Virus record (IMG/VR): IMGVR_UViG_3300031585_000003
Span: 1-30,538 of that record
Strand: one strand, 5' to 3'
Source of the DNA: a virus
Length of the DNA: 30,538 nucleotides
How positions within the stretch are numbered: the stretch's first letter is position 1; each line of letters opens with the position of its first letter. Of the stretch, positions 3,842-29,961 are shown one piece after another. The notes under the pieces are model-generated. The model was not told the origin of the DNA. It searched no databases and saw only the letters and a list, made by a program, of their open reading frames with translations. Made by a program: the position numbers and the translations under genes.

Positions 3842-3939
3842 AAATAACTGATTGACTATTGCACTGAAGTATGGGTATTCGGACAGGTTGAAAATGAGGT
3901 TAGTTAATAAAGGCAAGTAACTTATTAGAAAGGAAAGAG

Positions 3940-4932
3940 ATGCGAAAATTATTCAAAGTATTTGCAGTAGTTGTGGTAGTATTGGCGGTATTTGCGGTAT
4001 TTGACTGGAACTTCGGTCAAGACGTGTATCATACTGAATACACGAAGTATATTGTGAACAAGATACTGTTCAAGACAACGGCGAAAGCGGAGTTTCGGGA
4101 TACGGCATTATATATCAATTCTCCGGCGGATGGGCAGTTGGATGTAGTGGCGGACACGACATTGAATTTAGCGGGGCCGAAAGTAACGTCAGGGACGGGA
4201 TTTTGGGCGGATGCTCCTTCAATGGCCGGGAATGATCTGTCGAAGGCTTTTTTCTATGTCAATGATTTTGTAGGGGAGGTGTATTTCCCGACTGCTACGG
4301 GTGTGGCGAATGGATGGAAAGGAGTGGGAGATGCAACCTATGATGTATTGGGTGCAGCGGGGACGGTTGGTGGCTGGTGTTTGATAGCACCGGAGGCGGG
4401 GTCTGACAATGAAGTTTACTTCCAGATGGGACAACTTGGGACGGAAACTTATGTGGAATATACTGAGGATAGCGGGAAAAAATCATGGTTAGAATTTAAT
4501 CTGACACCAAGTTCAGTGACGAATGCAGCCAACTGGTTTGTAGGATTGGCGGAAGAAGGAAGTGCCGGAGCTAATTTTATCGCTGATGCCGGAAATGATA
4601 TAGCGGATAAAGATGCGGTTTTGGTGGGGGTTTTTGAGGCTGATGCGGATTCATTGACTGCTGTATGGCAGGTTTCCGGCAGTGCATTTGCTGATTCGCT
4701 CGAAACACTTATAACTGCAGGAGACGCCGCAGCCAATATAACTATCGGATTTTATTTTGACGGTGCCTCTACTCTTGGAATTTATAGGAATGGTTCATTA
4801 ATGGGTAATATTGATGTTGGCCAGGCCAGTTTCCCGGAAGGCGAGGAATTATCGCCAATTATTGCGATGAAGCAGGGTGCCAGTGCTATTAATATTAACC
4901 TGGATTGGATAAAACTTGTAGCGGAAAGGTAA
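3940..4932 (+). CDS. Secreted or anchored beta-rich virion-type protein (lectin-like jelly roll)
   Basis: This is a 330-residue protein. Residues 5-21 (FKVFAVVVVVLAVFAVF) form an unusually valine-rich hydrophobic segment, a signal peptide or anchor. The rest is beta-rich: NSPADGQLDVVADTTLNLAG, a WLEFNLT segment, FVGLAEEGSAG, and a C terminus GFYFDGASTLGIYRNGSLMG ... NLDWIKLVAER that resembles the concanavalin-like modules of phage capsid fibres. AAGGAAAGAG precedes the ATG, and TerL begins immediately after its stop. Its placement between the terminase subunits is unusual. A capsid fibre or decoration role is inference. The signal segment is hard to reconcile with cytoplasmic assembly. Confidence 0.55.
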   Translation: MRKLFKVFAVVVVVLAVFAVFDWNFGQDVYHTEYTKYIVNKILFKTTAKAEFRDTALYINSPADGQLDVVADTTLNLAGPKVTSGTGFWADAPSMAGNDLSKAFFYVNDFVGEVYFPTATGVANGWKGVGDATYDVLGAAGTVGGWCLIAPEAGSDNEVYFQMGQLGTETYVEYTEDSGKKSWLEFNLTPSSVTNAANWFVGLAEEGSAGANFIADAGNDIADKDAVLVGVFEADADSLTAVWQVSGSAFADSLETLITAGDAAANITIGFYFDGASTLGIYRNGSLMGNIDVGQASFPEGEELSPIIAMKQGASAININLDWIKLVAER

Positions 4933-6657
4933 ATGTTCTGGTATATAGAAAAGCCGGAAGACCGGCCACTCGCTTTTTTAGCTAAACTCCAGGAACGAGT
5001 TGATTCCGGGGAATTTGAGAAGCTGCCGAAAGATGAACAGACTAAGATCATCAAAACGGCGGTGATGTGGGATCAGGCTAAAGGGCGGTATATGTATCAG
5101 CCAAATGAGGAATTGTATTGGTGGTTCCTTATGCCGCATTGGATTAAGGGAATACGCGGCGGCAATCAATCCGGTAAGAGTAGCGGTTGTACAATGGACT
5201 TCGTGATGTGGGCGGAGGGTTGGCATCCACTTCAGAAGTTGAATATGGAGCGGATAATAGAAGAAACTTACGATGGAAAAATCAAGAAATGGCTGAAAGA
5301 ATTATACCGGCGCAGACTATTCTTGAAAGACCCACCCGTTAAACTAAGATCGGCGACGATTGATTACACGATTTATGTCAATGATATTATAGGCCCGGAA
5401 TATATGAAATGGGCTACTAATGAAATGGTTTCCGATGCCGCCTATACCAATGACAAGAAACGTAAGATTATATGGAATAACGGTTCCTTTGTCCATTTCA
5501 TGACTTACGAACAATCAGTATTGACGCATGGCGGGGCTGCGAGAGACGGTATTCAGCTTGACGAGGAACCACCGAAAGGCATTTGGGATCAATCCAAGAT
5601 GCGCGTATCCACAACTAATGGCAGGTTGATCGTGGGAATGACGGCAGAGCAGGGTGTGACTTGGACGGAGGATGAGATATGGAAACCCGGTCTCACCCAT
5701 CGTCACCCGACAATTTATGCCTGTGAACTATCAACTTATGATAATCCCATTAATTCACAGGCTATGATCGACCGTATCAAGCAGAGTTGTAGTGATGATA
5801 CTGAAATAGCGATTCGGATATACGGGAAATCTACCCCGCGCGGTGGCAGCGTATATGGCATGGCGAAAGATGAATACCCCTGGGTAATAGAACCATTTGA
5901 TATACCGCAGGATAAAGGCTATCTGATTATGGCGATTGACCCCCATCCCAAAGTTCCCCATGCAGTATTGTGGGTATGGGTTGATTATGAGGGCATTCAT
6001 CATCCGTTGTTCATGAATAAACCGTATTTGTATGAAGTCGGTGAACTTTTTGAGCCGTGTTCAATACCCGAACTTGCCGCACTTATTAAGCAAAAAGAGA
6101 AATACGAGTTTGGAAGAACCCATGATTTTGTGTTATGTGACCAATTCGCATGGAATAAAGACCAGAATAATCCCAAGACATTAGCCGATCAATTCATAGA
6201 AGCCGGGATTATGGTCACTCCGGCCACCAAAGACCGGGATTCCGGAATTGTCAAGGTGAAGGAAATGTTGTCACTGACTTTTGGTAAGGAATTGCCTGAA
6301 GACATGGAAGAATCCGTTATAATCAGGCGCAGATTTCCGCAGATTATGTGTTTTGATACTCTTAGTCTGGAACACGGCTTGCGATGGGAGCGGAAAAAAT
6401 ACCGTTGGCGTAAAGCCCGGCAAAGATATACCGATGACATTGCAATCGTTCAAAAGCCGGTAGATAAAGACGATCACTTCATGGAAAATGAGTATAGAAT
6501 TGCTTTGTTCGTTGTCGATGGCCAGTTTGAAATAATTGAAGCCGATGAGCAAAAAGACTCTTACAAGGTAAACCCGGAGATTAACGGAAATAAAATGGAC
6601 GTTGACTTTCGGGAATCCGCAAATTACCTTGAAGAAGAAAAGGGAGTGTTTGTGTAA
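4933..6657 (+). CDS. terL: Terminase large subunit (ATPase and nuclease)
   Basis: This 574-residue packaging motor pumps DNA into the prohead and cuts it. Walker A is GGNQSGKS (residues 76-83) and the Walker B/catalytic carboxylates are IQLDEEPP (D210, E211, E212). The RNase-H-like nuclease domain shows AIDPHPK (D336), VLCDQFAW (D403) and a late acidic block KDDHFMENEY. Length and motif order are normal for podovirus-type terminases. It starts directly at the stop of the preceding gene. No frameshift is seen. Confidence 0.95.
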   Translation: MFWYIEKPEDRPLAFLAKLQERVDSGEFEKLPKDEQTKIIKTAVMWDQAKGRYMYQPNEELYWWFLMPHWIKGIRGGNQSGKSSGCTMDFVMWAEGWHPLQKLNMERIIEETYDGKIKKWLKELYRRRLFLKDPPVKLRSATIDYTIYVNDIIGPEYMKWATNEMVSDAAYTNDKKRKIIWNNGSFVHFMTYEQSVLTHGGAARDGIQLDEEPPKGIWDQSKMRVSTTNGRLIVGMTAEQGVTWTEDEIWKPGLTHRHPTIYACELSTYDNPINSQAMIDRIKQSCSDDTEIAIRIYGKSTPRGGSVYGMAKDEYPWVIEPFDIPQDKGYLIMAIDPHPKVPHAVLWVWVDYEGIHHPLFMNKPYLYEVGELFEPCSIPELAALIKQKEKYEFGRTHDFVLCDQFAWNKDQNNPKTLADQFIEAGIMVTPATKDRDSGIVKVKEMLSLTFGKELPEDMEESVIIRRRFPQIMCFDTLSLEHGLRWERKKYRWRKARQRYTDDIAIVQKPVDKDDHFMENEYRIALFVVDGQFEIIEADEQKDSYKVNPEINGNKMDVDFRESANYLEEEKGVFV

Positions 6658-6675
6658 TGGAAAATGGAGGGATAT

Positions 6676-6843
6676 ATGCCGATTCCAAAAAAGGGTGAAA
6701 GTCGAAGCGAGTATGTTGGCAGGGCAATACACATGCTCGTTCATAAAGAGGGATTGAAACAAAAACAGGCAGTTGGAAAGGCTGAGGGGATGTATAGCTG
6801 GTATCTGGCCAAACGAAGACGTAATAATAAACATAAAGGATAA
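6676..6843 (+). CDS. Small head-region protein (MPIPKKGES family)
   Basis: This 55-residue gene fills the gap between TerL and the next long gene. MPIPKKGESRSEYVGRAIHM then KQKQAVGKAEGMYSWYLAK resembles the very short phage proteins between terminase and portal that begin 'MPxPKxGES...F..R' and end '..KQ..AVC...W'. The usual cysteines are replaced here. GGAGGG just before the ATG supports translation. The family is widespread in phage head modules and its function is unknown to me. Confidence 0.7.
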   Translation: MPIPKKGESRSEYVGRAIHMLVHKEGLKQKQAVGKAEGMYSWYLAKRRRNNKHKG

Positions 6844-6848
6844 TAATT

Positions 6849-7250
6849 ATGCAAGAAACCGCTCAAACAGTAGAGCCAAAAACTGTGACAACGCAAATCA
6901 CGGAAACAGATATTAAACCGAAGCCGGTGGAAATATCAAAATTAAGTCTGAATCAACGGATTCTACTCAGGGCATTGGCGGATGAAGTAATGGACAGCCC
7001 ATTGTTCAAAGGACTTGGAAATTTGCAGAAACAGTTATATTATTCCACCAAAGAAATGTTTGCAAAGCCTCATGGATTGGAAATGCAGGACATTGAAGGC
7101 GAAGAATTTTGGGAGAAAATCGAAGTCGCCGGACAAAAGAAGAAAGAACCGAAACGGTTTCTCAGGTTTAAGTGGAATTTTTATATACCCGGCACCAATT
7201 CCAAAATCAGTGTGGAAAAACGGTGGCGATATGAGGATTTCACGGCATGA
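6849..7250 (+). CDS. Hypothetical head-region protein
   Basis: This is a 133-residue protein. The first 30 residues are low-complexity (Thr/Pro/Lys), followed by a helical section (LSLNQRILLRALADEVMDS) and a Lys/Trp-rich C-terminal half ending WRYEDFTA. AAAGGATAATAATT precedes the ATG. It overlaps the next gene at ATGA (7247-7250). The position between TerL and portal suggests a packaging or head-assembly accessory, with no recognised domain. Confidence 0.65.
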   Translation: MQETAQTVEPKTVTTQITETDIKPKPVEISKLSLNQRILLRALADEVMDSPLFKGLGNLQKQLYYSTKEMFAKPHGLEMQDIEGEEFWEKIEVAGQKKKEPKRFLRFKWNFYIPGTNSKISVEKRWRYEDFTA

Positions 7251-7495
7251 ATGGTATATACTATATCATATCATTGATCGTGACAGTTACAGGGATGCTC
7301 CTGTCGTTCAAAATGGGCTATCGTGCAGCCGGGCGAGAAGAAAGACTGATAATGAGCGCACCATCTGATATGGTAATAATTGATACCGAAGCCGAAGAAA
7401 AAGCACCTGAGACCGATGAGAAAATACGGGAAGACATGGACATGGCGATAAAAATGGCGCAAGGATATGGCGATGAAGCCGGACAACACTTATGA
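7247..7495 (+). CDS. Small membrane-anchored protein
   Basis: This is an 82-residue protein with one N-terminal hydrophobic helix (IYYIISLIVTVTGMLLSFKMGY, here residues about 4-25) and an acidic cytoplasmic-type tail. The start overlaps the preceding stop. No family is recognised. Confidence 0.6.
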   Translation: MNGIYYIISLIVTVTGMLLSFKMGYRAAGREERLIMSAPSDMVIIDTEAEEKAPETDEKIREDMDMAIKMAQGYGDEAGQHL

Positions 7496-7544
7496 AAATG
7501 ATAAACTATTAAAGATTATGTCGATTATTGGGCTATTTTAATAT

Positions 7545-9533
7545 ATGGCAAAACGAAAATCAAATTTAAAAGACCCGGATGTCGAACTTGTTGAATCCCT
7601 GATTGCCTTTGGAATGAAGGGTAAGGAAGATTGCGGTGTAATCACAAACTACAATCGCGGCATTCAATATTGGCGGGGAAATCATAAGATCAGTGAGAAC
7701 AGCGCCAAGACCGGCAATAAAGTCTATAATAAGTTTGCCGAAATTATTGAAACCCGTCTTTCCCATTTGACCGATGCCAAGCCGAAGTGGTTGTTCAGGC
7801 CGCAGGAAACCAATGACATACAGATCGCCCATGCTCTTAACCAGATAATGGGTGATGTCATTTGGGATTATATAGATTGGGATCATGGTGAAGATGGCGG
7901 TGGCAAAGGTGAAGACGCTATCTTACAGGCAGCATTTGCTGGTAGTTGCCATATTAAAACAGTGCTCGATATTGATACCGGCTATCCTAATTTTGTTGTA
8001 ATCCCCGCCGGTGCCATAATTGTCGATCCGAAAGCCAAGAAGAAAAAGCAACTTCGTTACTGGATTCATCTTGTCCCGACTTCGATAAAACATATCAAGC
8101 GCCAATATGGGGTAGATGTTCAGCCACAAGCCGATCTTGAGCGTATATACGACCATGACCGGGCGGACTTCCATAGACCGCAGATTACCGGGCAGCTTGA
8201 TTCGACAAATGACACATTCCCATCACTACCCTACAAAATAGATGGGAAAGGTGGACAATCCGATTATAGCGCCGATCAATTAGGCAAAGCCATTATCGCT
8301 GAATGCTGGATGCAGGATTGGACAATGGAAGCTATACCTTATGATGCCAAAGAGACTTCCGATGAACATAATGCCTTCAAAATGGCACAACCTGTATTTG
8401 TAACGCATGATGAACATCATCCTAAACATATCGCAGCGCATACCACATTCATGAATAAGCTTGATGCGGTGGCTGATGCGCAGCTCATACAGCAGCTTCA
8501 AGAGCACATTGCTACTCATGAACGATTCCCGCAGGATACCAGCCGCCTGAAATATCCTTATGGACGTGTTATCACTGTCTGCCAGGGGAAGAAACTCCTC
8601 GACCGGCCAAATCCGTTTGGCATGTTGGGACTTGGATTCAGGGATGTTCTGATAAAATTTGATTATAATAAGAACCCGGAGGCATATTGGGGGAAACCGC
8701 TTACTATCGATCTTTTCGATCCGCAGGATGATCTCAACCATCGCAAGAATGCAATTACTAAAAACATTAATTTGCTTAATAATGGTATCCGCAAGATTAA
8801 ATGGATTCTCTATGATAAGCTCGGCATAAAAAACAATCCCCGAATGCTGAATAATATGCCAGGTAATGTTGTGCCGTTCATTAATTCACCGGAAGAATTT
8901 ACCACTGATTTCGGGAAGCCGATGCCGAACCAGGTATGGGTTGATCTTCAGTGGAATGAGCGGTTTATGGAGAATCAAACCAATAGTGAGGCAGTGGGAA
9001 GTGGGCGCTTACCAGCCGCCGGGACTGCTGGTGTAACAGTGGAAACATTGTTGGGTGAATTTAAGACTATTCTTCGCAAGCCGCTACGTCACTATGCCGG
9101 AGCATTGGCGGAAATGGGCAGAAATGCGGTTCTGATTATGTCGGAATTTATGGATGATAACGAAAAATTCATGATTCTCGGTGCGGATCAACAAGCCTAC
9201 GAACAGATCAATTGGGGTGAGATCAGGGATCGTGCGCGATTAATGAGAAACGTTAGAATTGATACCGCCAATATGTTGCCAACTTCGCGTCTTGAGACCT
9301 TCCGTCGCACTGTTGAGTTGATGCAGGCCGGAGTTCCGCCGGAAGCCGCCGTGCAACTGTTGGATGATCCCAAAACAATTCAGATCATGCAGACCATGAG
9401 TAAGATCAATCAACTCACCGGAATGTTGGAACAGATGGCGCAGGAAAATAAGCAACTTAAAGAACAAGTAAACACAATGGTAAACCGGATGCAGGGCAAT
9501 TCCGGTATGGGAAATGTTGGGATATTTAAATAG
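7545..9533 (+). CDS. Portal protein
   Basis: This 662-residue protein is the expected size for a podovirus-type portal. It forms the dodecameric ring at the capsid vertex through which TerL pumps DNA. Recognisable portal-like features are an N-terminal acidic helix, KVYNKFAEIIETRLSHLTDAKPKW, the wing region with VVIPAGAIIVDP, a long central section, and a C-terminal helical region ending in a coiled coil (MLEQMAQENKQLKEQVNTMVNRM). It directly follows the terminase module and precedes scaffold and capsid. The ribosome site before ATG 7545 is weak. Confidence 0.85.
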   Translation: MAKRKSNLKDPDVELVESLIAFGMKGKEDCGVITNYNRGIQYWRGNHKISENSAKTGNKVYNKFAEIIETRLSHLTDAKPKWLFRPQETNDIQIAHALNQIMGDVIWDYIDWDHGEDGGGKGEDAILQAAFAGSCHIKTVLDIDTGYPNFVVIPAGAIIVDPKAKKKKQLRYWIHLVPTSIKHIKRQYGVDVQPQADLERIYDHDRADFHRPQITGQLDSTNDTFPSLPYKIDGKGGQSDYSADQLGKAIIAECWMQDWTMEAIPYDAKETSDEHNAFKMAQPVFVTHDEHHPKHIAAHTTFMNKLDAVADAQLIQQLQEHIATHERFPQDTSRLKYPYGRVITVCQGKKLLDRPNPFGMLGLGFRDVLIKFDYNKNPEAYWGKPLTIDLFDPQDDLNHRKNAITKNINLLNNGIRKIKWILYDKLGIKNNPRMLNNMPGNVVPFINSPEEFTTDFGKPMPNQVWVDLQWNERFMENQTNSEAVGSGRLPAAGTAGVTVETLLGEFKTILRKPLRHYAGALAEMGRNAVLIMSEFMDDNEKFMILGADQQAYEQINWGEIRDRARLMRNVRIDTANMLPTSRLETFRRTVELMQAGVPPEAAVQLLDDPKTIQIMQTMSKINQLTGMLEQMAQENKQLKEQVNTMVNRMQGNSGMGNVGIFK

Positions 9534-20172: not shown

Positions 20173-20673
20173 ATGAAAGGCATCATAATTTTACTATTAC
20201 TTATCCCGTTTCTTGTGTATTCGCAGAATGTAAGAACCGTTCCTCAAGATCATGACTGGACGACTATATTTAATGGGACGCTTGGAGCCGGGGCGGATGG
20301 GATTGACACTACCAGCGCATTCAGCCCAAAACAGTGGAAGGGAGTATGCACACTTGCCTTTGAAACGGACACTGCGGGGGCTTCTATCAAAAGTGCGAAT
20401 CAATCTGATTCTTCTTTGACGGTAGGTTTGCAACTCAAAGATAAAAGTCTTGATTGGGGATGCTGGTATGGAAATATAACCACATTTAAGGGAGTGACCA
20501 ATTTTTCAAAAGTTGATACAGTTGCTCGGGCGATAGTCAATAGAACTGCATCTTATTGGTTTTTTGAGCTTGGTGGACAAGATGCATGGCAATGGGCCGA
20601 TAGTGCGCGACTTATTGTTTACATTGGTGTTGGCGATTCGCTTGATACCAGAATAGATGTAGGGGGGCAATAA
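20173..20673 (+). CDS. Secreted beta-rich protein in the fibre region
   Basis: This is a 166-residue protein with a clear Sec signal peptide (MKGIIILLLLIPFLVYSQ, likely cut after SQ), then a beta-rich domain with many Trp/Asp/Thr residues (DHDWTTIFNGTLGAG, RTASYWFFELGGQDAWQW). CAGGAGTAATCC precedes the ATG, and its stop overlaps the next start. The composition resembles phage head-fibre or tail accessory proteins, but the export signal is unexpected for a virion part. Confidence 0.6.
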   Translation: MKGIIILLLLIPFLVYSQNVRTVPQDHDWTTIFNGTLGAGADGIDTTSAFSPKQWKGVCTLAFETDTAGASIKSANQSDSSLTVGLQLKDKSLDWGCWYGNITTFKGVTNFSKVDTVARAIVNRTASYWFFELGGQDAWQWADSARLIVYIGVGDSLDTRIDVGGQ

Positions 20674-21062
20674 TGGCTAAAAGTGCAAAAGCATTATTTG
20701 GAACTTCAACTACGTATGCGATTGCCGATGATTCTTCTGATGTTGAGGGGGCGACTATCCGCAATGACTACCCGCCATCGGCGCAGAATGTGGCCTCGGC
20801 ATTTATCCACAACAACGGAGCTGGAGATAATATTCTCATCACGGTTAAGTTTCAATTATATTCCGGTGTAGATTGGGGGGCAAAGCACACCTGCGAGGAT
20901 TCAAATGGTGACGCTATAACCTTTTACGCGGATTCTGAAGAAACAATAGAAGTTAATCTCTACTCACAGCCGGAATGGAAATTGGCTGATGCCTGGCGCA
21001 TATTATTAAGCAGGGCAGGCTCAACAGCATTAAACGGAAAAGCAACGGCGGTAATAATATGA
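20673..21062 (+). CDS. Small beta-rich virion-type protein
   Basis: This is a 129-residue protein without a signal peptide, MAKSAKALFGTSTTYAIADD..., predicted beta from its alternating pattern (NILITVKFQLYSGVDWG, EETIEVNLYSQ). It overlaps both neighbours by one to four bases, so it is translationally coupled to two signal-peptide proteins while itself staying cytoplasmic. Function is unknown. Confidence 0.6.
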   Translation: MAKSAKALFGTSTTYAIADDSSDVEGATIRNDYPPSAQNVASAFIHNNGAGDNILITVKFQLYSGVDWGAKHTCEDSNGDAITFYADSEETIEVNLYSQPEWKLADAWRILLSRAGSTALNGKATAVII

Positions 21063-22054
21063 AATATCTATTGATACTGGTATTGGCATTATATTCATTT
21101 GCCGAATCGCAAACTGCAAAGAAAGTAGAGCCGCGTGATTTGGCCCCGGCAACCAAAAGGCTCATTGGCGATAGTGCGAGATCTATTGTTTCTGATTCTA
21201 TTGAATATCGTATTGGAGCAAGACGAGATAGTGTATGGTTTTCTGATACTGATAGCTTATCATTTAATGGAGATACACTTAAAGTTTGGAAAGATGGTTT
21301 GGTAGTTGGAAGAGTCTTGCCAAGTATACCTATTGCAGTATCTCCAAAGCCAATCGATCTATGGACTGCTTCAGATAGTAATTATGTAAAGATAGTCGCA
21401 TGTGTAGTTAGGCAAACAACTCAAGGTGGTGGTTGGGAAATAATAACAGGAAACCATGTTCCTATTCCAGGTTGGTTATCTATATCAACTGAAACTGGCC
21501 ATCTTAAATTAGACTATACTGGAATGGATTCTGTGGTAACTTTTTTAGCTGTTCCTGATGAGGGATATGCCTCAGAGGGTATATTTATGGGATCAAGTGT
21601 AAATAGTGATCGAGCTTTAATTAAGTTTTATAAAGATGTAACGTTGTCGGGTAGAATTTATAGAAGTGCCGGGCATTGGACTTTAAGTAAGGATGCTGGA
21701 GCAACTGATTTAAAATATACTACTTTAACACTTGATACTTCTTCATACTTAGCCGATGGTGGATTTAGCTTAACCTTTAATGAGGGTACGTATAATTTTG
21801 ATGTTGACCCTCATAGAAATTCTGTAATTACTACTCCAAGATCGGCTGGTAAATATTTTGTTACCGCTGGAACTCAAAATGAATATACAGCAAGGTTCTA
21901 TCCAGTTAAGCCTAACTTATCTCTTGTCCAATCTACAACAGATAGTGTGGACTTTAACTTCACTTGGGATTTGGGTACAGTTAGAATCGATGCTGATAAT
22001 CTATATGGTTCTGCAAGTAATATCTGGATTATAGGAATATTTATCAAACATTAG
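21059..22054 (+). CDS. Secreted fibre-like protein
   Basis: This is a 331-residue protein with a Sec signal peptide (MKYLLILVLALYSFAESQ), a charged helical linker (PRDLAPATKRLIGDSARSI) and a long beta-rich region (TLSGRIYRSAGHWTLSKDAG; LADGGFSLTFNEGTYNFDVD). From about 21190 the DNA looks more A/T-rich, with codons such as TCT, ACT and TTA replacing the GCC/CCG/GGC common in the structural genes. This hints at an acquired, possibly receptor-binding module. It overlaps the previous gene at ATGA. Confidence 0.55.
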   Translation: MKYLLILVLALYSFAESQTAKKVEPRDLAPATKRLIGDSARSIVSDSIEYRIGARRDSVWFSDTDSLSFNGDTLKVWKDGLVVGRVLPSIPIAVSPKPIDLWTASDSNYVKIVACVVRQTTQGGGWEIITGNHVPIPGWLSISTETGHLKLDYTGMDSVVTFLAVPDEGYASEGIFMGSSVNSDRALIKFYKDVTLSGRIYRSAGHWTLSKDAGATDLKYTTLTLDTSSYLADGGFSLTFNEGTYNFDVDPHRNSVITTPRSAGKYFVTAGTQNEYTARFYPVKPNLSLVQSTTDSVDFNFTWDLGTVRIDADNLYGSASNIWIIGIFIKH

Positions 22055-22080
22055 TTAGGAAAATACAAGTGAGGATTAAA

Positions 22081-23208
22081 ATGAAAAAGATAATTGTATT
22101 GTTATGTATTTTGATTATGTCATCTATTTCGTGGTCGCAATGGACCGGATGGGGTTCACCTTCAGGATTATCCTTCGCTAACTATATGCGACAAGGGACC
22201 TGGGTGTGGACAGGAAGCCAGACTTTTTCCGACACTACATTCTTTGGTTCTGCGGGGAGTTATATATTAGGCAAAGGAAATGATCTGGCATTTTATGATA
22301 CAAATTATGGCAGTGAGAGAACATTAACTCAATTGGCCGCCTCTGCGAGTGGATACTGGACACAAAGTGGGAGTAATATTTATTACAATTCCGGCAAGGT
22401 CGGTATCGGGACGGCAGCGCCGGCGAAGGAGCTGCATATATCGTCTGGTTCGCCTGCCATTAGGTTGCAAGATTCTGATTCGGATGGGGGAGGTGCAGTA
22501 GCTTTTCTTGAGTTTTACGACTCAAATAGTAGGACAGGTTTTATTGGTGACGGCGGTACTTTTGTACAGGCGCTCGGTATTGCGGCAGACGCTGGCTACG
22601 GAATCAATTTTGCGGTCAACGGTGCTAATGTTGAAACGGCTCCGTCAGTGATAATAAACAGTAGTGGCAACGCCGGCATCGGGACAAAGGGGCCAGATGG
22701 AATTTTGGAACTGAATATGGGAACGAATAAGGTATTCAGGATGAGTTATAATGATGCAGATGGCTCTGCTACCGACTATTCACAAATGGCGGTAAATTCC
22801 GATGGAGCCCTCACGATTTCAACAGTCGATGCGGGGGCCGGAACGAGCGGGAATATTGTATTGGCTCCAGATGGAGTGGTGAATGTCACCGGAAAAATTA
22901 ATAATACTACACAGCAGGCGACTACGCTTGGAGTTGGAGTTACTACCTTTGCAGTTACTAGAAATGTAGCTACAATTACCGGAGATGGTGCAGGAAATAC
23001 TATTGCAACCATAACTGCTGGTGGCGTTGGTCTCTATACTTTTATTTTCACCGGAACAAATATTACAATTACGGACACTGATGCTCATACAGCTAATACT
23101 GTAGATTTAGCTGGGACAGCAACTAATTTTACAAGTGCAGATGATAAGGTATTACAACTTGTTTTTGATGGAACAAGCTGGTATGAAGTTTCACGATCTA
23201 CTAATTAA
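22081..23208 (+). CDS. Tail-fibre-like protein with signal peptide
   Basis: This is a 375-residue protein from ATG 22081, chosen over GTG 22069 because TGAGGA sits just upstream and the signal peptide begins there (MKKIIVLLCILIMSSISWSQ). The middle carries NSGKVGIGTAAPAKELHIS, and later NAGIGTKGPDGILELNMG, the VGIGT..P...L.V repeats typical of tail fibres that often precede a chaperone domain. No S74 chaperone is present. The C terminus has a beta domain ending VFDGTSWYEVSRSTN. Its stop touches the AGGAGA where the IS110 element inserted, so the gene is intact. Confidence 0.7.
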   Translation: MKKIIVLLCILIMSSISWSQWTGWGSPSGLSFANYMRQGTWVWTGSQTFSDTTFFGSAGSYILGKGNDLAFYDTNYGSERTLTQLAASASGYWTQSGSNIYYNSGKVGIGTAAPAKELHISSGSPAIRLQDSDSDGGGAVAFLEFYDSNSRTGFIGDGGTFVQALGIAADAGYGINFAVNGANVETAPSVIINSSGNAGIGTKGPDGILELNMGTNKVFRMSYNDADGSATDYSQMAVNSDGALTISTVDAGAGTSGNIVLAPDGVVNVTGKINNTTQQATTLGVGVTTFAVTRNVATITGDGAGNTIATITAGGVGLYTFIFTGTNITITDTDAHTANTVDLAGTATNFTSADDKVLQLVFDGTSWYEVSRSTN

Positions 23209-23216
23209 GGAGACGG

Positions 23217-23224
23217 TATGATAA
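23217..23224 (+). repeat. IS left-end inverted repeat TATGATAA
   Basis: The perfect reverse complement, TTATCATA, is at 24525-24532 at the other end. In a circularised element the two would flank GGAGACGG as a palindromic junction. Confidence 0.65.
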
Positions 23225-23240
23225 GGTGTCAGTTGTTTAA

Positions 23241-23416
23241 TTCCACGGAAATTGCTAACATACACCCGTGGAGTAGATAGGTTATAGGCTGTATCATTAG
23301 TGTAGGGCTATTGACCCTGTTAAGGAGACTAGTCAGGCCTATAACCGAAGCGTCCTCATAGGGCAAAATGACCCTGAATAGGAGAATGGTGGACAACTGA
23401 CGAAGGTTCTACTCCA
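23241..23416 (+). ncRNA. Candidate IS110 bridge RNA
   Basis: The region between the IS left end and the transposase folds, by eye, into three parts. A 5' stem-loop pairs CCACGG 23243-23248 with CCGTGG 23266-23271. A long internal-loop hairpin is closed by GGTTATAGGC/GCCTATAACC (23280-23289 and 23337-23346) with an inner AGGG/CCCT stem. A second loop has the same inner AGGG/CCCT stem (23360-23375). This is the 5' stem, target loop and donor loop order known for IS110 bridge RNAs, and the length (about 175) is also right. TTAAGGAGAC at 23320-23329 equals the left junction, and ATAGGAGAA at 23378-23386 equals the right junction. Which loop strand pairs with which DNA strand is unresolved. Confidence 0.65.
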
Positions 23417-23447
23417 TACTTGCAACCCCCAAACATAAGGAGTAGAA
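23407..23447 (+). promoter_or_regulatory. Hairpin hiding the transposase ribosome site
   Basis: TTCTACTCC (23407-23415) is a perfect complement of GGAGTAGAA (23439-23447), which contains the Shine-Dalgarno AAGGAG of the transposase (ATG 23451). An upstream GGAGTAG (23270-23276) can pair with the same CTACTCC and would free the ribosome site. That gives a possible two-state translational control. Confidence 0.6.
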
Positions 23448-23450
23448 GTA

Positions 23451-24464
23451 ATGCGCTACATAGGTGTGGATTTGCACAAGAGCACATTTTATGTGTGCAG
23501 TCTGGATTTAAAAGACAACCGGAAGTACCGGCAATACCGCATGGAAGATTTGGAAGAATTTATAGCCGGTTTGCAATCAGAGGATCTGGTAGCGGTGGAA
23601 TCTACCGGCAATGCCCGCTATTTTGCGGAGCAGCTGCGCAGCCATGTAAAGGAAGTGAAGGTGGTGAATCCCAGCCAGTTCAAGGTGATCAAGAATTCGA
23701 TTAAGAAGACGGACAAACACGACGCCGAATTGCTGGCTTTGTTTCTGAGCCGGGGTATGCTGCCGGAGATTCGTGTTCCCGAAGCGCTGCAAGCACAACT
23801 CAAGAGTCTGGCCCAGACTCGCGACAAGTTGGTGAAGCTTCGGACCACACTGAAGAACAAGATTCATAATATTCTCAACGGCCATGGGATTGTGAGCAAA
23901 CGCGAAGATTTTACCAGCGAGAAGGGTTTGTCCCGGGCATTATCCTACCCGGTCAGTGAATTAGCCAAAATCGAAATGCAAGTCATCGTGGAACAAATCC
24001 GTCATTTAAATCAAGGCATCGCAAAATTGGATGACCAGCTTCGGGAAAAGGGGAAAAAACTGAAAGGATTCAAAAACCTCACCAGCATAAAGGGTATTGG
24101 TGAAAAAAGTGCGACTATTCTATTGAGCGTGATCGGAAATATTGAAGATTTTGAGGACGAAAAGAAACTATCGGCTTACTTTGGGATGGTTCCCAGGGTT
24201 AGCAGTTCGAACCAAACCGTTCATCAGGGCCGAATCACAAAACATGGGAGCAAGCTGGGAAGAACTACTCTGGTTCAATGTTGTCTAATTGCAAAACGTT
24301 ATTCGCCCTATTTGGCAAAATTTTACAACAATATTAAACAACGTAAAGGAAGCGGTAAGGCCATTATTGCCACCGCCAGAAAACTGTTAACAATCATATT
24401 TTACACATTAAAAAACAACTGGATATTTGAGGATTTCCCCAATTTTGTAATCCAGCAAGGTTAA
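23451..24464 (+). CDS. IS110-family transposase (DEDD recombinase)
   Basis: This is a 337-residue protein with the IS110 domain order. The N-terminal RuvC-like DEDD domain has D7 (GVDLHKS), E50 (VAVESTGN), D88 and D91 (KKTDKHDAELLA). A helical linker follows. The C-terminal transposase domain has a helix-hairpin-helix (LTSIKGIGEKSATILLSVIG) and the YFGMVPRVSSSNQ region, where the catalytic serine is expected (S251-S253). Length is normal and the frame is intact, so it may be active. Such enzymes recombine donor and target DNA chosen by a bridge RNA. Confidence 0.95.
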   Translation: MRYIGVDLHKSTFYVCSLDLKDNRKYRQYRMEDLEEFIAGLQSEDLVAVESTGNARYFAEQLRSHVKEVKVVNPSQFKVIKNSIKKTDKHDAELLALFLSRGMLPEIRVPEALQAQLKSLAQTRDKLVKLRTTLKNKIHNILNGHGIVSKREDFTSEKGLSRALSYPVSELAKIEMQVIVEQIRHLNQGIAKLDDQLREKGKKLKGFKNLTSIKGIGEKSATILLSVIGNIEDFEDEKKLSAYFGMVPRVSSSNQTVHQGRITKHGSKLGRTTLVQCCLIAKRYSPYLAKFYNNIKQRKGSGKAIIATARKLLTIIFYTLKNNWIFEDFPNFVIQQG

Positions 24465-24542: not shown

Positions 24543-24917
24543 ATGAAAAAATTAATTTTATTATTACTTGGATTATTTCTGTTTTGCAGCCCGGTCGTAA
24601 ATGTCGTTCAGGCGCAGACCTGGGAAACTAATATTCGGGTTGATGGTGACCTGCCGGCTGGAACAGATGTCGCCTTATTCCAAAGTCAGGTGGAAAATGC
24701 AATAAATACAAGTATAGACAATGCCGTTTACGTCTTTGACATTCGAGTGAGGGCTAATCAGGACACTACCATTTATCAATGCAAGGTAGATATTCAAGGG
24801 AATGTTAAGGCCGGAACAGTATTGAAGGATTTCGGTGTAACAGTTTACAATTATTTTAAGGGGAAGTTTTCATCGGCGAAACTGTCGGTTCGTTATCTCA
24901 ACGATACAGAGTGGTAA
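24543..24917 (+). CDS. Small secreted protein
   Basis: This is a 124-residue protein with a strong signal peptide (MKKLILLLLGLFLFCSPVVN, continuing VVQAQ, cut after AQ) and a beta-rich mature part (TWETNIRVDGDLPAGTDVAL ... AKLSVRYLNDTEW). It starts five bases after the IS110 junction, and its ribosome site AGGAGA is the very sequence the element duplicated, so it should still be translated. A promoter would have to come from readthrough or from within the element. No family is recognised. Confidence 0.6.
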   Translation: MKKLILLLLGLFLFCSPVVNVVQAQTWETNIRVDGDLPAGTDVALFQSQVENAINTSIDNAVYVFDIRVRANQDTTIYQCKVDIQGNVKAGTVLKDFGVTVYNYFKGKFSSAKLSVRYLNDTEW

Positions 24918-24953: not shown

Positions 24954-25271
24954 ATGACAAAATATGAAAAAATGAAAGAAATCATCCTTGACCACCAGGC
25001 GATTGAGGAGGAAATCCTGGAAGTAACCGGAATGTCTGAGGGATCTCTTAAAACTTATGCCCACAAAATGGGTGCGACCAAGGTTAAAGGCAATGGTCAT
25101 TATGAGATTAATGATAGTTCTGATAGTCCCAAGGAAAAAGAGCAAATTATATTTTGGGATGATGAGAATGACCAGGATCAAAATCCCGGGGAGCTGTTTC
25201 GGATTGTTGCTTTTAAGATGGAAAGCCTTTCAAAAACCCTTGATAAATTAGCAAAGATTTGGGGGAAATAG
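24954..25271 (+). CDS. Hypothetical protein with possible N-terminal HTH
   Basis: This is a 105-residue protein. Residues about 10-45 (ILDHQAIEEEILEVTGMSEG then LKTYAHKMGATKVKGNGHYEI) could form a small helix-turn-helix, with a following acidic linker and a C-terminal helix FKMESLSKTLDKLAKIWGK. It is cytoplasmic, unlike both neighbours. ACAGGTG precedes the ATG, and the cohesin-like gene begins at the base after its stop. It could regulate the next genes, but that is a guess. Confidence 0.5.
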   Translation: MTKYEKMKEIILDHQAIEEEILEVTGMSEGSLKTYAHKMGATKVKGNGHYEINDSSDSPKEKEQIIFWDDENDQDQNPGELFRIVAFKMESLSKTLDKLAKIWGK

Positions 25272-25838
25272 ATGAGAAAGTTATCTATAATTGTTTTGTC
25301 ATTATTATTGATAAATTGCGTTCAGGAGATAACCGCAAAAATAAAGATTGGAGATACCATGATTGCGTTGCCAGTTGGTTCTGTATTCGGAGTCAAGCTT
25401 GATGCTGATGACTTCGAGAATATCAAGAATATTGGTCTAAATGTAGTTTACGATAAGGACGTGGTGGAAGTATTTGATACTGACCCCCTGACACCTTTAA
25501 CCCAAGTATCAGCGCAAAACCTGGGCTTCATGCCAAAGGCTTTAATTGCAGCCAGTGTCAGACATACCGGTAACGTAGAGGAGCCTGGGGTGTTGGTAAC
25601 GTCTTATCTGGTTGTCAATAATGCAGATGCCGGTACAACGTCAGAATGGAAGGATGCCTGGATGATTAAGTTTAAGATAATTGGAGTGGGCGAAACCGAC
25701 TTGAACATGATAGTGACTGACTTGACAACGACAACCGGGCAGATTGATCCAAACAATGTTAAGATTTTCAATGAGACAGTTCAGGGAACTCCAGCACTTG
25801 AGAAACCAAAACTAAGATTAACCGGAGTGCTTCTATAA
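25272..25838 (+). CDS. Exported cohesin-like protein (putative lipoprotein)
   Basis: This is a 188-residue protein. MRKLSIIVLSLLLINC is a signal sequence with a possible relaxed lipobox cysteine at 16. Residues about 24-165 follow the cohesin pattern: KIKIGDTMIALPVGSVFGVKL (GD..I.LPV start), IGLNVVYDKDVVEVFD (the 'V.YDP.VLE' block), MIKFKIIGVGETDLNMIV (the 'ITFKV..GTT.L' block). Cohesins bind dockerins. The next gene encodes two dockerin loops and starts in the stop codon of this one (TAATG). The C terminus KPKLRLTGVLL echoes KPKLRLTAIIL of that neighbour. The fold call is by eye, and other carbohydrate-binding or adhesin beta-sandwiches remain possible. Confidence 0.65.
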   Translation: MRKLSIIVLSLLLINCVQEITAKIKIGDTMIALPVGSVFGVKLDADDFENIKNIGLNVVYDKDVVEVFDTDPLTPLTQVSAQNLGFMPKALIAASVRHTGNVEEPGVLVTSYLVVNNADAGTTSEWKDAWMIKFKIIGVGETDLNMIVTDLTTTTGQIDPNNVKIFNETVQGTPALEKPKLRLTGVLL

Positions 25839-26569
25839 TGTGCAAGTGTTTCAAACAATTTTTTCGGTGCTTACTTTGTAGATTCTGTAAGCCGAAACCG
25901 AAGTTGAGATTGACTGCTATCATTCTTTCTTTATTGCTGATCGTTTCGTTACAGGCTCAAGAATACCCTGGTCTTAAACTGTTCTTTTCACAGCCTACAA
26001 AAGACTCAGTATTACAATGGAATACTAAGTTATGCAGCGAAACCGACACAGCAAGAGATGTGTTTCTTAGGACAGACGTTGTTAAATTGGATGAGGTTAA
26101 TGGCTGGGATTCATTAAAGATTATCTGGCCTATTAGCGGTTTTATCCTTGCCAAGAGAGAGTATTGGGCGTTTGTACAGGCCTTGAATAAGAATGGAGTG
26201 AGTGGTTGGGCTGGAATATCATTAATGTTTATTCCTGCTGATGTGAACGGAGATCACGAGGTAAACGGAGGGGATATAGGTCAGGTTATTGATCCACTTG
26301 TTTTCGGAGGTGTGGTTAACGATAAATTCCCTAATAATATCTGGACAGACGTAAATAGAGACGGTTATATTAACGGAACAGATGTTGGACTTATCTTGAA
26401 CGACATAGGGACAGTATATGTGCCAAAGAATTCGATGCTATTATTATCTCCACAAACAGGAAAGATGACTCCATCAACACCGGCACTACATCCACCTGGA
26501 GCGCCACCACCGGCCACTTGGTCACCTATGCAACCGCCTGTAGGATCACCGGAACCGAGGATGAAATGA
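25838..26569 (+). CDS. Secreted protein with dockerin type I-like calcium loops
   Basis: This is a 243-residue protein. Residues 1-17 carry five cysteines (C2, C4, C11, C14, C17), then KPKPKLRLT and a hydrophobic core ending SLQAQ at 41, so a signal peptide with an extended, odd N-region. Residues about 42-130 look like a beta or Fn3-like domain ending in AFVQALNKNGVSGWAGISL. Two textbook dockerin loops follow: D135, N137, D139, N143, D146 (DVNGDHEVNGGD) and D171, N173, D175, N179, D182 (DVNRDGYINGTD), about 36 residues apart. The last 40 residues are proline-rich. The overlap with the cohesin-like gene implies a stoichiometric pair. Confidence 0.75.
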   Translation: MCKCFKQFFRCLLCRFCKPKPKLRLTAIILSLLLIVSLQAQEYPGLKLFFSQPTKDSVLQWNTKLCSETDTARDVFLRTDVVKLDEVNGWDSLKIIWPISGFILAKREYWAFVQALNKNGVSGWAGISLMFIPADVNGDHEVNGGDIGQVIDPLVFGGVVNDKFPNNIWTDVNRDGYINGTDVGLILNDIGTVYVPKNSMLLLSPQTGKMTPSTPALHPPGAPPPATWSPMQPPVGSPEPRMK

Positions 26570-26705: not shown

Positions 26706-26969
26706 ATGGGCATCGAAGATTATATCATTGTCGCACAGATTATATTATTTCTTGCCACATTATTGTCAATCGTGAAGGGGGTGGATTGGATAATGGTAAA
26801 GGTAGATAAAAGAATGGACGAAAGAATAATGCTCAACGAACATTTTAGAAAACTTTTTTCTAACAGCGAAAGTGCCAAAGAAAAGCTTAAGGAGTTAGAG
26901 AAAATAGGACAATGCATTAGCGATATTAAGCTAATACTTGCACGGAAGGGATTAATTGATAAAACTTAA
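26706..26969 (+). CDS. Small membrane protein with cytoplasmic helix
   Basis: This is an 87-residue protein. One N-terminal membrane helix (DYIIVAQIILFLATLLSIVKG) is followed by a charged helical tail (SESAKEKLKELEKIGQ). GAGGGAT precedes the ATG. It is the first of a run of five small, mostly membrane proteins after the secreted genes, where phages often keep holin and spanin functions. No lysis family is recognised. Confidence 0.55.
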   Translation: MGIEDYIIVAQIILFLATLLSIVKGVDWIMVKVDKRMDERIMLNEHFRKLFSNSESAKEKLKELEKIGQCISDIKLILARKGLIDKT

Positions 26970-27051
26970 ATGAGATATATCTTTCAACATATTAAGACTA
27001 AACAAGGCTCTAAGATATTATTTGGAGTCATAAAGAAAATAGAGGAAAAAG

Positions 27052-27381
27052 ATGGACTTGCTTTACAGACTTATTATTTTCGGATTGTCTTATTTTTTAA
27101 TCGCAATCTTAAAAGCATTCAGAGATTGCGTAAAAGATGAATATAATTGGGATACTTCAATATTCAGCAAGTATTCTATTTTTATAAAGTGGCACAATAT
27201 GTCAGTCCCGTATGACGACTGGCACGTTGCAGATGGGACTATACAAGGTCTATATGTATTTAGTTTCATCTGGTTGCTATCTGAAAGTTGGTGGATTTCT
27301 ATAATATTTACACCAATATATCTATACGGAGTATTTTATAATATATTTAACTTATTTGAAGAAAACCTTTTTAGAAAATAA
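27052..27381 (+). CDS. Membrane protein, three predicted helices
   Basis: This is a 109-residue protein with hydrophobic segments at about 5-21 (YRLIIFGLSYFLIAILK), 70-85 (LYVFSFIWLLSESWW) and 86-100 (ISIIFTPIYLYGVFY). The middle soluble part has IKWHNMSVPYDDWHVADG, a His/Asp/Trp-rich region that could be functional. GAGGAAAAAG precedes the ATG. An alternative overlapping frame starts at 26970. Function is unknown, and a holin-like role is possible. Confidence 0.6.
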   Translation: MDLLYRLIIFGLSYFLIAILKAFRDCVKDEYNWDTSIFSKYSIFIKWHNMSVPYDDWHVADGTIQGLYVFSFIWLLSESWWISIIFTPIYLYGVFYNIFNLFEENLFRK

Positions 27382-27412
27382 CTAACCATAAACCAAAGAA
27401 AGGGGGCCTATA

Positions 27413-27577
27413 ATGGCTCTAACAAAAGGTGAAGTAGTGCAGTGTGCGGGCCGACTGGTAGAAAGAGTTGGCATAGCGCTGGATGACGAGGAAACTCCTG
27501 ATAAGATTTCTCTTGAAGAAGCTTTAAAAATGCTACAAGATACTATTGTAGATATAATGAAAGAGTATTCAGACTGA
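27413..27577 (+). CDS. Small acidic protein
   Basis: This is a 54-residue protein, MALTKGEVVQCAGRLVERVG ... DIMKEYSD, with AAAGGGGG ahead of the ATG and a 9-base gap to the next gene. It is helical and acidic, with no membrane segment. The good ribosome site and tight packing in the membrane-protein run support that it is real. Function is unknown. Confidence 0.6.
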   Translation: MALTKGEVVQCAGRLVERVGIALDDEETPDKISLEEALKMLQDTIVDIMKEYSD

Positions 27578-27586
27578 GGAGATATA

Positions 27587-27883
27587 ATGGGCAAGCTGAT
27601 AAAAAAGTTATTGAGAGCATTAAGTGGGCACAAAACTATTATTAGTCTTGCCCTTTATATTATTTGGTCAAGGATGGGTCTTGATCCGAGTAGTGAGGTA
27701 CTTAAATTAGTAAACGACTTCTTAATAGGCTTAATTACTATTTCTGCTACTCATCATATAGTCAAGACTGAGCCGGTAAAGAAGGTTGGCAAAATAGCAT
27801 TAGCAAAAGTGGATAAAAATCCATTCGGGTTGTGGTGGAATAACAAGAAGTGGAAAAAGGATAACAAGGGAAATGACAGATAA
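27587..27883 (+). CDS. Small membrane protein, holin-like candidate
   Basis: This is a 98-residue protein. A basic N terminus (MGKLIKKLLRALSGHK) is followed by two hydrophobic segments, TIISLALYIIWSRMG and LVNDFLIGLITISATHHIV, and a very basic C-terminal tail (WWNNKKWKKDNKGNDR). Two helices plus a charged tail fits class II holins, but no holin family is recognised. GAGGAGATATA precedes the ATG. It overlaps the next gene by 11 bases. Confidence 0.5.
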   Translation: MGKLIKKLLRALSGHKTIISLALYIIWSRMGLDPSSEVLKLVNDFLIGLITISATHHIVKTEPVKKVGKIALAKVDKNPFGLWWNNKKWKKDNKGNDR

Positions 27884-28214
27884 GGAATATATGACTAAGG
27901 CAGACGTCAGAGAATTTGTGAATAATCAAGTCGATCACGCTTTTAGTAGATTAGTCGATAAGATTAACCATGTGGAAAAGCTGATTACACAACGGCTTGA
28001 GTTGGAAGACCGGGCGCTAATTAAGGCCGAGGCCATTGAATTTAAGTCAAAAAAACAAGTTTCTGACGACATAGAAAAGATAGTTAAAAAAGTATTGGAG
28101 TTGAGTAGAGGAAGCTCACTTTTATCAGGAACATTCAGAGGTGCTGGACTTACAGTAATGGTGGTGTTTGAGTTAATCATACTAATCTTATTGGCAATCA
28201 AGGCCTTTATGTAG
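27873..28214 (+). CDS. Coiled-coil protein with C-terminal membrane anchor
   Basis: This is a 113-residue protein. Charged helices (NNQVDHAFSRLVDKINHVEK ... QVSDDIEKIVKKVLELSRG) are followed by one C-terminal membrane helix (LTVMVVFELIILILLAIKAFM). It partly overlaps the holin-like gene. It might be a lysis-control or scaffold-like membrane protein, but the topology is opposite to a classic inner-membrane spanin, which has an N-terminal anchor. It is the last rightward gene before the terminator. Confidence 0.55.
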   Translation: MTDKEYMTKADVREFVNNQVDHAFSRLVDKINHVEKLITQRLELEDRALIKAEAIEFKSKKQVSDDIEKIVKKVLELSRGSSLLSGTFRGAGLTVMVVFELIILILLAIKAFM

Positions 28215-28230: not shown

Positions 28231-28267
28231 GCCTCCTAATTCCCTCCACTCCGGGGGGCTTTTTTTA
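28231..28267 (+). terminator. Intrinsic terminator of the rightward operon
   Basis: GCCTCC (28231-28236) pairs with GGGGGC (28254-28259, one wobble) around a C/T-rich loop, followed at once by seven T. It sits 17 bases after the last rightward gene and directly before the leftward cluster, so it separates convergent transcription units. Confidence 0.65.
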
Positions 28268-28287
28268 TGAATGTTAATTAGTAGTTA
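28263..28287 (-). repeat. Gene-end repeat, copy 1
   Basis: On the minus strand TAACTACTAATTAACATTC plus ATAAAA begins with the stop codon of the 28285-28545 gene. The same 25 bases occur at 29047-29071, and with two changes at 29586-29610, each time starting exactly at a stop codon. Confidence 0.85.
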
Positions 28288-28545
28288 TGTGCCCCAAAAA
28301 TTATCGTAGTCCTCTTTGTTTTTAAACTCAAAAACATTTGTTATAACAACACATTCAGCTTTCCCATTAAGTTGCTTTGCAGCAAGTTTCTTTAGGTCTT
28401 CGTTTTGGGGGAATTGGGGACCATAACTACTTATATTACCTTTAACTCTTTTCAAATTGTCTTGGTAGTAATATGTTATTAAAAAATAGCGCATAACATC
28501 AGTATTAAGCGGACTCGAATCCGCTGTGGTTTTCTGCTTTTTCAT
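28285..28545 (-). CDS. Small hypothetical protein
   Basis: This is an 86-residue protein. I start it at ATG 28545 (MKKQKTTADSSPLNTDVMRY), because GAGGTAAAA lies just before it, rather than at the longer frame from 28575. The part RYFLITYYYQDNLKRVKGNI and VVITNVFEFKNKEDYDNFWG suggests a small alpha/beta fold. No family is recognised. Its stop begins a copy of the 25-base gene-end repeat. Confidence 0.6.
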   Translation of the reverse strand: MKKQKTTADSSPLNTDVMRYFLITYYYQDNLKRVKGNISSYGPQFPQNEDLKKLAAKQLNGKAECVVITNVFEFKNKEDYDNFWGT

Positions 28546-29030: not shown

Positions 29031-29046
29031 GTCATCACCCCTTCTG

Positions 29047-29071
29047 TTTTATGAATGTTAATTAGTAGTTA
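29047..29071 (-). repeat. Gene-end repeat, copy 2
   Basis: Identical to 28263-28287 and starting at the stop codon of the 29069-29569 gene. It is followed on the minus strand by CAGAAGGGGTGATGAC and the start at 29030. Confidence 0.85.
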
Positions 29072-29569
29072 TTTTTGCACCCACCCCAAAGTATCATAAA
29101 TAACTATTACGCTTGGGTCTTTAATATACAATGTATCACTGCCAACGTTTATTGTTGCCCTAACTTTATAATCGTTAAATTTAAAGGTTAAATTAGTGTC
29201 AATTAAAGCTGTTGTTTTATTTGGTAATTTGCCTTTACAATTTTTAAGATTTTCTCGAAGGATATTTAAACTATCAAGCTTCGTTAAAACACCAACTTTA
29301 AGATATTTAAAAAACAAATTAGCCGCCTTGTCATAGCTTAAATCTCCATAAACTGTCATTGTATCAGAAGAAAAATCCATTGTTAGCTTTTTATTATTAA
29401 AATGAAAAACTACAGTCTGAGGAGGTAAATATTTACCAACATGAACTACATTACTGTCATTTACTGTATTATTATTTAGTTGATATATTTGTGACGAAGA
29501 AACAGAAAATAACAGAAGCATTAAAGCGACTGCCACCACACACCATAATTTTTTGAAATTCTTCCACAT
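29069..29569 (-). CDS. Secreted protein of unknown function
   Basis: This is a 166-residue protein with a Sec signal peptide (basic MWKNFKKLW, then VVAVALMLLLFSVSSSQ, likely cut after SQ). The mature part alternates beta segments (TVVFHFNNKKLTMDFSSDTM, YKVRATINVGSDTLYIKDPS) with one helical section containing a single cysteine (LRENLKNCKG). AGGAGGAAAAAT precedes the ATG. No family is recognised. Its stop begins a copy of the 25-base repeat. Confidence 0.6.
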   Translation of the reverse strand: MWKNFKKLWCVVAVALMLLLFSVSSSQIYQLNNNTVNDSNVVHVGKYLPPQTVVFHFNNKKLTMDFSSDTMTVYGDLSYDKAANLFFKYLKVGVLTKLDSLNILRENLKNCKGKLPNKTTALIDTNLTFKFNDYKVRATINVGSDTLYIKDPSVIVIYDTLGWVQK

Positions 29570-29585
29570 ATTTTTCCTCCTTCTA

Positions 29586-29610
29586 TTTTATGAATGTTGA
29601 TTAATAGTTA
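29586..29610 (-). repeat. Gene-end repeat, copy 3
   Basis: Matches copies 1 and 2 at 23 of 25 positions and starts at the stop codon of the 29608-29961 gene. It is followed on the minus strand by the AGGAGG ribosome site of the 29569 gene. Confidence 0.85.
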
Positions 29611-29961
29611 TCTTGCATTGATCTCAAATAGATACTTTTTCTTTTCCCCACATAATAATTCTTCTTGAACCCAATATTGATCCCCATTATCAAACTCAAC
29701 ATAATAACATGCCCTTGTCATTGCTCCGCCCCGAATTGCAGAAACAATTCCCCATAATTTTGTATTTACTTTATTTACCCTTTCGCCTATTTTAAACTCC
29801 GCACCATAACCAATCCCAACATGCCCATCATCAACAATTGTAATTGTTTGGGTTGTATCATTCTTTACAACTTTCGATACATTATTTTTATCTTTTGCAA
29901 TGCAAGATAACCATATCATGCAAAGGACAAAAACCGCTGTGATCTTTTTAAAATATTTCAT
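29608..29961 (-). CDS. Putative secreted lipoprotein
   Basis: This is a 117-residue protein. The signal sequence MKYFKKITAVFVLCMIWLSC ends in a possible relaxed lipobox (C20), as seen in Bacteroidota-type lipoproteins. The mature part AEFKIGERVNKVNTKLWGIV, ACYYVEFDNGDQYWVQEELL looks like a small SH3/KOW-type barrel. AGGAGATTTGAG precedes the ATG. Function is unknown. Confidence 0.55.
   Translation of the reverse strand: MKYFKKITAVFVLCMIWLSCIAKDKNNVSKVVKNDTTQTITIVDDGHVGIGYGAEFKIGERVNKVNTKLWGIVSAIRGGAMTRACYYVEFDNGDQYWVQEELLCGEKKKYLFEINAR

Follow-up and report, generated by a model that had tools for sequence, protein, structure and literature searches.

Overlapping late genes of a phage encode a dockerin protein and a probable remote cohesin, both with Sec-type signals

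The window analysed here, by which we mean the whole stretch of DNA at its full length, is a linear virus record of 30.5 kb from IMG/VR, and its terminase, portal, and Mx8-like major capsid genes identify it as a phage, just as an earlier note on this DNA had stated. At the end of its late gene run, downstream of tail-fibre-like genes and an IS110 insertion and ahead of a group of holin-like genes, lie two consecutive genes, hereafter called gene 1 and gene 2 (Table 1). These overlap by a single base within a TAATG stop/start junction, which the earlier note had also pointed out. By a hydrophobicity scan, both proteins look Sec-exported, and this agrees with the Sec-type appearance of their N-terminal signals and with the export that had been proposed for them. 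Family searches with the four small downstream genes gave no match.

Table 1. Features of the two-gene locus and its immediate surroundings, in window coordinates.
Feature	Position	Strand	Basis or remark
Shine-Dalgarno-like GGGGGA 5' of gene 1	25261..25266	+	sequence
Gene 1, exported cohesin-like protein, 188 aa	25272..25838	+	ORF; sub-threshold Pfam Cohesin; profile of 129 cohesins; AF2 with alignment; Foldseek
Gene 1 signal peptide, residues 1-22	25272..25337	+	hydrophobicity scan; sequence
Non-canonical lipobox LLINC, gene 1 residues 13-17, Asn at -1	within 25272..25337	+	sequence
Cohesin-like domain, gene 1 residues 31-154	25362..25733	+	Pfam match span; end-to-end alignment
TAATG stop/start overlap, gene 1/gene 2	25836..25840	+	probable translational coupling
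Gene 2, exported dockerin protein, 243 aa	25838..26569	+	ORF; Pfam Dockerin_1 above cut-off
Gene 2 Cys-rich n-region and hydrophobic signal segment, ending ...SLQAQ	25838..25960	+	sequence; scan
Probable Ig/Fn3-like domain, gene 2 residues 41-133	25958..26236	+	weak Pfam hit; otherwise by eye
Dockerin type I domain, gene 2 residues 134-188	26237..26401	+	PF00404
Calcium loop 1, DVNGDHEVNGGD	26240..26275	+	
Calcium loop 2, DVNRDGYINGTD	26348..26383	+	
Proline-rich C-terminal tail of gene 2	26465..26566	+	sequence
Four small downstream genes (26706, 27052, 27587, 27873)	26706..28214	+	mostly predicted membrane proteins; holin-like neighbourhood
Terminator-like hairpin, closes late gene run	28240..28258	+	

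Gene 2 matches the Pfam Dockerin_1 family (PF00404) with 27.7 bits (E=3.3e-6), which lies above the curated cut-off of 22.9 bits. Exactly two D-x-N-x-D-x3-N-x2-D loops are found in the protein, at residues 135 and 171 and hence 36 apart, and because both fall inside the above-cut-off match, they are not chance occurrences. Thus, the two perfect loops described previously are borne out and, as judged from its sequence, gene 2 carries a true type I dockerin. In the PDB, the sequence neighbours of gene 2 are without exception dockerins of cellulosomes or enzymes that bear a dockerin, though with weak E-values. For the preceding residues 41-133, the only hint from Pfam is Ig_J_second (an Ig domain of tail protein J), with an E-value of 0.11. 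Here, we also noticed a Cys-rich, positively charged stretch, MCKCFKQFFRCLLCRFCKPKPK (window 25838-25900), situated before the hydrophobic segment of gene 2.

For gene 1, the Pfam Cohesin family (PF00963) matches residues 31-154 with 12.1-13.0 bits, which is under the 24.1-bit cut-off, and of the 24,736 families in Pfam it is the sole one listed for the mature domain at E-values up to 10. Starting from cohesins collected in KSB1 genomes, and leaving gene 1 out, we grew a profile of 129 bacterial cohesin domains; with it, gene 1 scored 15.2 bits, ahead of all 5,000 shuffles of its own sequence. By this same profile, gene 1 was fourth of 1,381 mostly phage proteins (E=0.0014), being outranked only by three strong, genuine phage cohesins. 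While broad profiles separate gene 1 from its shuffles, a narrow one built from the closest-looking cohesin subset (L067-type) fails to do so, and we therefore regard the relationship as real but distant. Moreover, gene 1 can be aligned end to end with 18 bacterial cohesins (7-16% identity), and in an hhalign comparison with 13 cohesins it was the best of four window proteins, yet the score was a weak one (P=0.023). The AF2 model of gene 1 made with a cohesin alignment adopts a cohesin fold (pLDDT 72, pTM 0.69) and, in a Foldseek search, 50 of the 50 PDB matches listed were cohesins or cohesin complexes (best E=4.7e-8), with TM values (by query length) of 0.48-0.66 among those listed and 2xdh among the best. 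This fold support is not independent, since the input alignment consisted of cohesins and the model made without it fails (single-sequence AlphaFold, pLDDT 35, no PDB match). On the profiles and the model, gene 1 is a probable remote cohesin with a single cohesin-fold domain; in this remote form the cohesin identity given in the earlier note can be kept, though not as a family assignment by Pfam.

The N-terminus of gene 1 reads as a classic signal, with MRK followed by LSIIVLSLLLI. A lipoprotein anchor had been suggested for this protein, but its L-I-N-C sequence fails the canonical lipobox [LVI][ASTVI][GAS]C, in that Asn rather than Gly, Ala, or Ser is located at -1, and such an anchor appears doubtful. 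An ordinary signal peptidase cut after ITA is as plausible as lipobox processing. Alternatively, a relaxed lipobox of the Spirochaete type may be present, as some phyla use relaxed lipoboxes and the IS110 relatives described below lie in several phyla. As a separate observation, the peptide KPKLRLT occurs both at the end of gene 1 (window 25803-25823) and near the start of gene 2 (25895-25915), with differences that are synonymous only; a repeat of length 7 was reached in 7 of 20,000 shuffles.

Relatives of gene 1 and gene 2 were found in neither the viral contig nor the phage collections, and none of gene 1 in the genome contigs. The earlier note had named beforehand, as an outcome that would speak against its idea, a pair that is not conserved in relatives, and in fact the viral, phage, and genome collections yielded no related phage in which the pair is conserved. 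Searches with the capsid and terminase led to distant phages only, and no dockerin was found in the relatives of the window terminase. Modules of these kinds in other phages are analogous, and not homologous, to the pair described here. Neither protein has a Pfam match to the type IX sorting domain (Por_Secre_tail). We rejected a cellulosome, as there is one cohesin-like domain and no scaffoldin, enzyme, or carbohydrate-binding match among the scanned window proteins. Considered as well, given the gene overlap, the holin-like neighbours, and the proline-rich tail, was a spanin pair, which is ruled out by the appearance of both proteins as large globular beta domains, by the dockerin in gene 2, and by the fact that neither is a coiled coil or a tiny lipoprotein.

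The IS110-family transposase (window 23209-24464) is inserted between late-region genes, and its element has a 240-base non-coding leader that is a possible bridge RNA. Its nearest relatives (64-67% identity) come from KSB1, SM23_31, Thiotrichaceae, and Planctomycetota, and because the relatives, which include still others, are spread across several phyla, they do not identify the host. Sec-type N-termini, with a positive charge and strong hydrophobicity, are found on several neighbours as well (20173-20673, 21059-22054, 22069-23208, and 24543-24917), and a strong Sec-type signal is also present at 3940-4932. One of these signal-bearing late genes is tail-fibre-like, and such signals are unusual for the structural genes of tailed phages.

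Dockerins and cohesins are both found in other phages. A scan of viral contigs for dockerin loops returned at least 120 stretches, and exported dockerin proteins occur in at least 11 phage records (L079, L090, L093, L115, L117, L192, L193, L195, L196, L199, and L203), where they form a family whose members, roughly 210 residues long, combine a beta-rich domain with a C-terminal dockerin and are encoded in late regions beside tail or terminase genes. For most of the phage dockerin proteins surveyed, the same record has no recognisable phage cohesin. Indeed, of 50 virus records with the dockerin motif, just one showed a Pfam cohesin match, and that a weak one; a phage cohesin directly adjoining a dockerin is therefore unusual. 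As for the cohesins, the 632-residue L075 protein combines a signal sequence with Pfam matches to Cohesin (51.7 bits) and to the type IX sorting tail (43.7 bits), and its relatives are spread over at least 80 IMG/VR contigs (L236-L315), which are mutually related and do not amount to 80 independent cases. Among these cohesin ORFs, 78 of 80 also score for a dockerin-like module in the same ORF, and in 51 of the 80 contigs a second, separate dockerin-like ORF lies near the cohesin, mostly 2.3-3.5 kb away. In L075 and L144, the cohesin and a dockerin-like module share one chain. The cultured Flavobacterium phage immuto (L235 = MW353175.1:5079-19413) has the L075-type protein split into adjacent genes, one product of which is annotated as a 'cohesin domain-containing protein'; for both L075 and immuto (immuto26A_15), Pfam bears out the type IX sorting tail. 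Dockerin half-repeats were also noticed in the phage records L088, L191, and L197, where they lie within tail-fibre-like proteins. The phage L092 has two large signal-bearing proteins (3799-8129) with weakly cohesin-like C-termini, one having a dockerin-like loop.

In our literature search, no paper on the function of phage-encoded cohesin-dockerin pairs was found, though gene 40 of VvAW1 is mentioned in passing as dockerin-like (PMC3558961). To this extent, the earlier remark that no phage system of this kind had been described holds; it is too broad, however, with regard to the cohesins annotated in immuto and present in at least 80 IMG/VR contigs, and to the phage-encoded type IX cargo that has already been published (PMC7468147). 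These observations suggest that many environmental phages encode exported cohesins and dockerins whose functions have so far gone undescribed.

Proteins with dockerins and cohesins outside cellulosomes are known in archaea (PMC9012536). Like gene 1 and gene 2, the non-cellulosomal modules of Archaeoglobus fulgidus (cohesin 2xdh) and ANME archaea (PMC9012536) comprise a single cohesin or type I dockerin, are exported, and lie outside cellulose degradation. In contrast, those modules are cellular, whereas here we have two overlapping phage genes with a putative pairing of their products. The Cryophage type IX secreted cargo is likewise phage-encoded and directed to the host surface, with proposed effects on the surface and on superinfection, although it consists of enzymes and PA14 proteins with T9SS tails, and no cohesin or dockerin is seen in the accessible portion of that report (PMC7468147). 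Comparable with our pair are the immuto cohesin (vB_FspM_immuto, immuto26A_15, QQO91694.1) and its IMG/VR relatives, which are also phage-encoded, exported, and situated beside exported proteins with dockerin-like loops. Nevertheless, these proteins are larger, come from large Bacteroidota phages, and have type IX sorting tails, while their dockerin-like modules are under the Pfam cut-off; in sequence, the link to gene 1 and gene 2 goes no further than the fold families. With the phage dockerin proteins L093, L117, L195, and others, gene 2 shares a signal, a beta-rich domain, a C-terminal dockerin, and a late-region location; these differ in having no cohesin gene noted nearby, and only the dockerin aligns with gene 2, the N-terminal domains do not.

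Few protein locks in nature are tighter than that between a cohesin and its dockerin, and such pairs are familiar from the secreted systems of cells. In lambdoid phages, the host-envelope morons lom, bor, and cor sit in the late region after the tail-fibre gene and before the lysis genes; their products are small envelope proteins, and Cor blocks the phage receptor. The gene position of our pair is similar, though there is no sequence relation to Lom, Bor, or Cor, and these have no cohesin or dockerin. The locus has a dockerin, a signal sequence on each protein, overlapping genes, and a position at the end of the late run, and given these we tentatively favour, at somewhat less than an even chance, an explanation in which the two products are Sec-exported late moron proteins that pair by way of their cohesin and dockerin modules and coat the envelope of the host. 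Both would leave the cytoplasm by the Sec pathway at a late stage of infection, with gene 2, which is Ig-like and has its type I dockerin towards the C-terminus, serving as the plug and gene 1, as the cohesin, providing the socket. Their binding would presumably depend on calcium, and would take place in the periplasm or outside the cell, where calcium is available. By analogy with the lom, bor, and cor products, the bound proteins may then decorate the host envelope, the likely benefit being a block of re-adsorption or superinfection, or else a surface tether for gene 2's Ig-like domain and its proline-rich tail. We prefer surface decoration against re-adsorption or superinfection because of the lom/bor/cor-like gene slot and the type IX phage cargo. 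The exported cohesins with dockerin-like companions in immuto and the 80 IMG/VR loci also speak for this explanation; against it stand the cohesin score of gene 1 under the Pfam cut-off, the dependence of its AF2 model on a cohesin alignment, the failure to find relatives of the pair in the collections searched, the doubtful lipid anchor, and the rarity of a recognisable cohesin in the records of other phage dockerins. In a wider and more doubtful reading, phages would have acquired cohesin and dockerin modules on several occasions, as a self-contained, phage-encoded kit for surface assembly, whose parts would be exported late by host secretion systems and joined by calcium on the cell exterior, with the overlapping pair as its minimal two-protein version.

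The main rival to pairing between the two phage proteins, and one that we think unlikely, is that the phage dockerin docks onto cohesins displayed by the host, and the phage cohesin onto host dockerins, with the host scaffold being hijacked. Cohesins in 70 of 82 genomes of KSB1, one lineage among the nearest IS110 relatives, would supply such partners, and the exported dockerin proteins of at least 11 phage records, set beside the lone weak cohesin match in 50 dockerin-motif records, fit with this too; the spread of the IS110 relatives over several phyla, however, leaves the host unassigned, and a cohesin-like gene directly upstream of, and overlapping, the dockerin gene favours pairing within the phage. 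Quite improbable, in our judgement, is that gene 1 and gene 2 are accessories of the virion fibre, with cohesin and dockerin joining tail or decoration parts and the signal-like N-termini being for assembly or incidental. The pair does lie downstream of tail-fibre-like genes, several with signal-like starts (20173, 21059, and 22069), and dockerin half-repeats do occur in the tail-fibre-like proteins mentioned above, but a Sec signal would take the proteins out of the cytoplasm, where tailed phages assemble, and neither protein matches a structural family.

We attach a similarly low probability to a reading in which a single-chain surface protein (cohesin/Ig/dockerin) is split between the two genes, the dockerin would be a partner in cis or a cap that calcium stabilises at the chain end, and nothing would assemble in trans. 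This gains from the single chains of L075 and L144 as compared with the two adjacent genes of immuto, from the 78 of 80 phage cohesin ORFs that contain both modules, and from the KPKLRLT repeat at the gene 1 end and gene 2 start, with its low frequency among shuffles, yet gene 1 and gene 2 each keep their own start and full signal sequence, as two exported proteins would. Least probable, and indeed very unlikely, is that gene 1 is an unrelated beta-sandwich with a dockerin-bearing neighbour by coincidence; the sub-threshold Pfam score, the subtype profile that does no better than shuffles, the hhalign result, and the failed single-sequence model are what would be expected of it, whereas the broad profile and Pfam single out gene 1 specifically, and a genuine dockerin directly next to it makes a cohesin likelier from the outset.

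If pairing between gene 1 and gene 2 is true, a phage with its own lock and key would represent a new viral route to host-surface remodelling. As immuto is a cultured phage with a laboratory host, Flavobacterium sp. LMO8, a role for phage cohesins and dockerins is directly testable there. Furthermore, orthogonal phage cohesin-dockerin pairs are possible tools for protein assembly.

Elsewhere in the window, we noticed an MT-A70-type adenine methyltransferase gene (674-1267) and near-identical short repeats at 28256-28291, 29040-29075, and 29579-29614, at 277-308 and 1258-1289, and at 2378-2399 and 2653-2674. These repeats adjoin the ends of successive same-strand genes and are probably shared early promoters.
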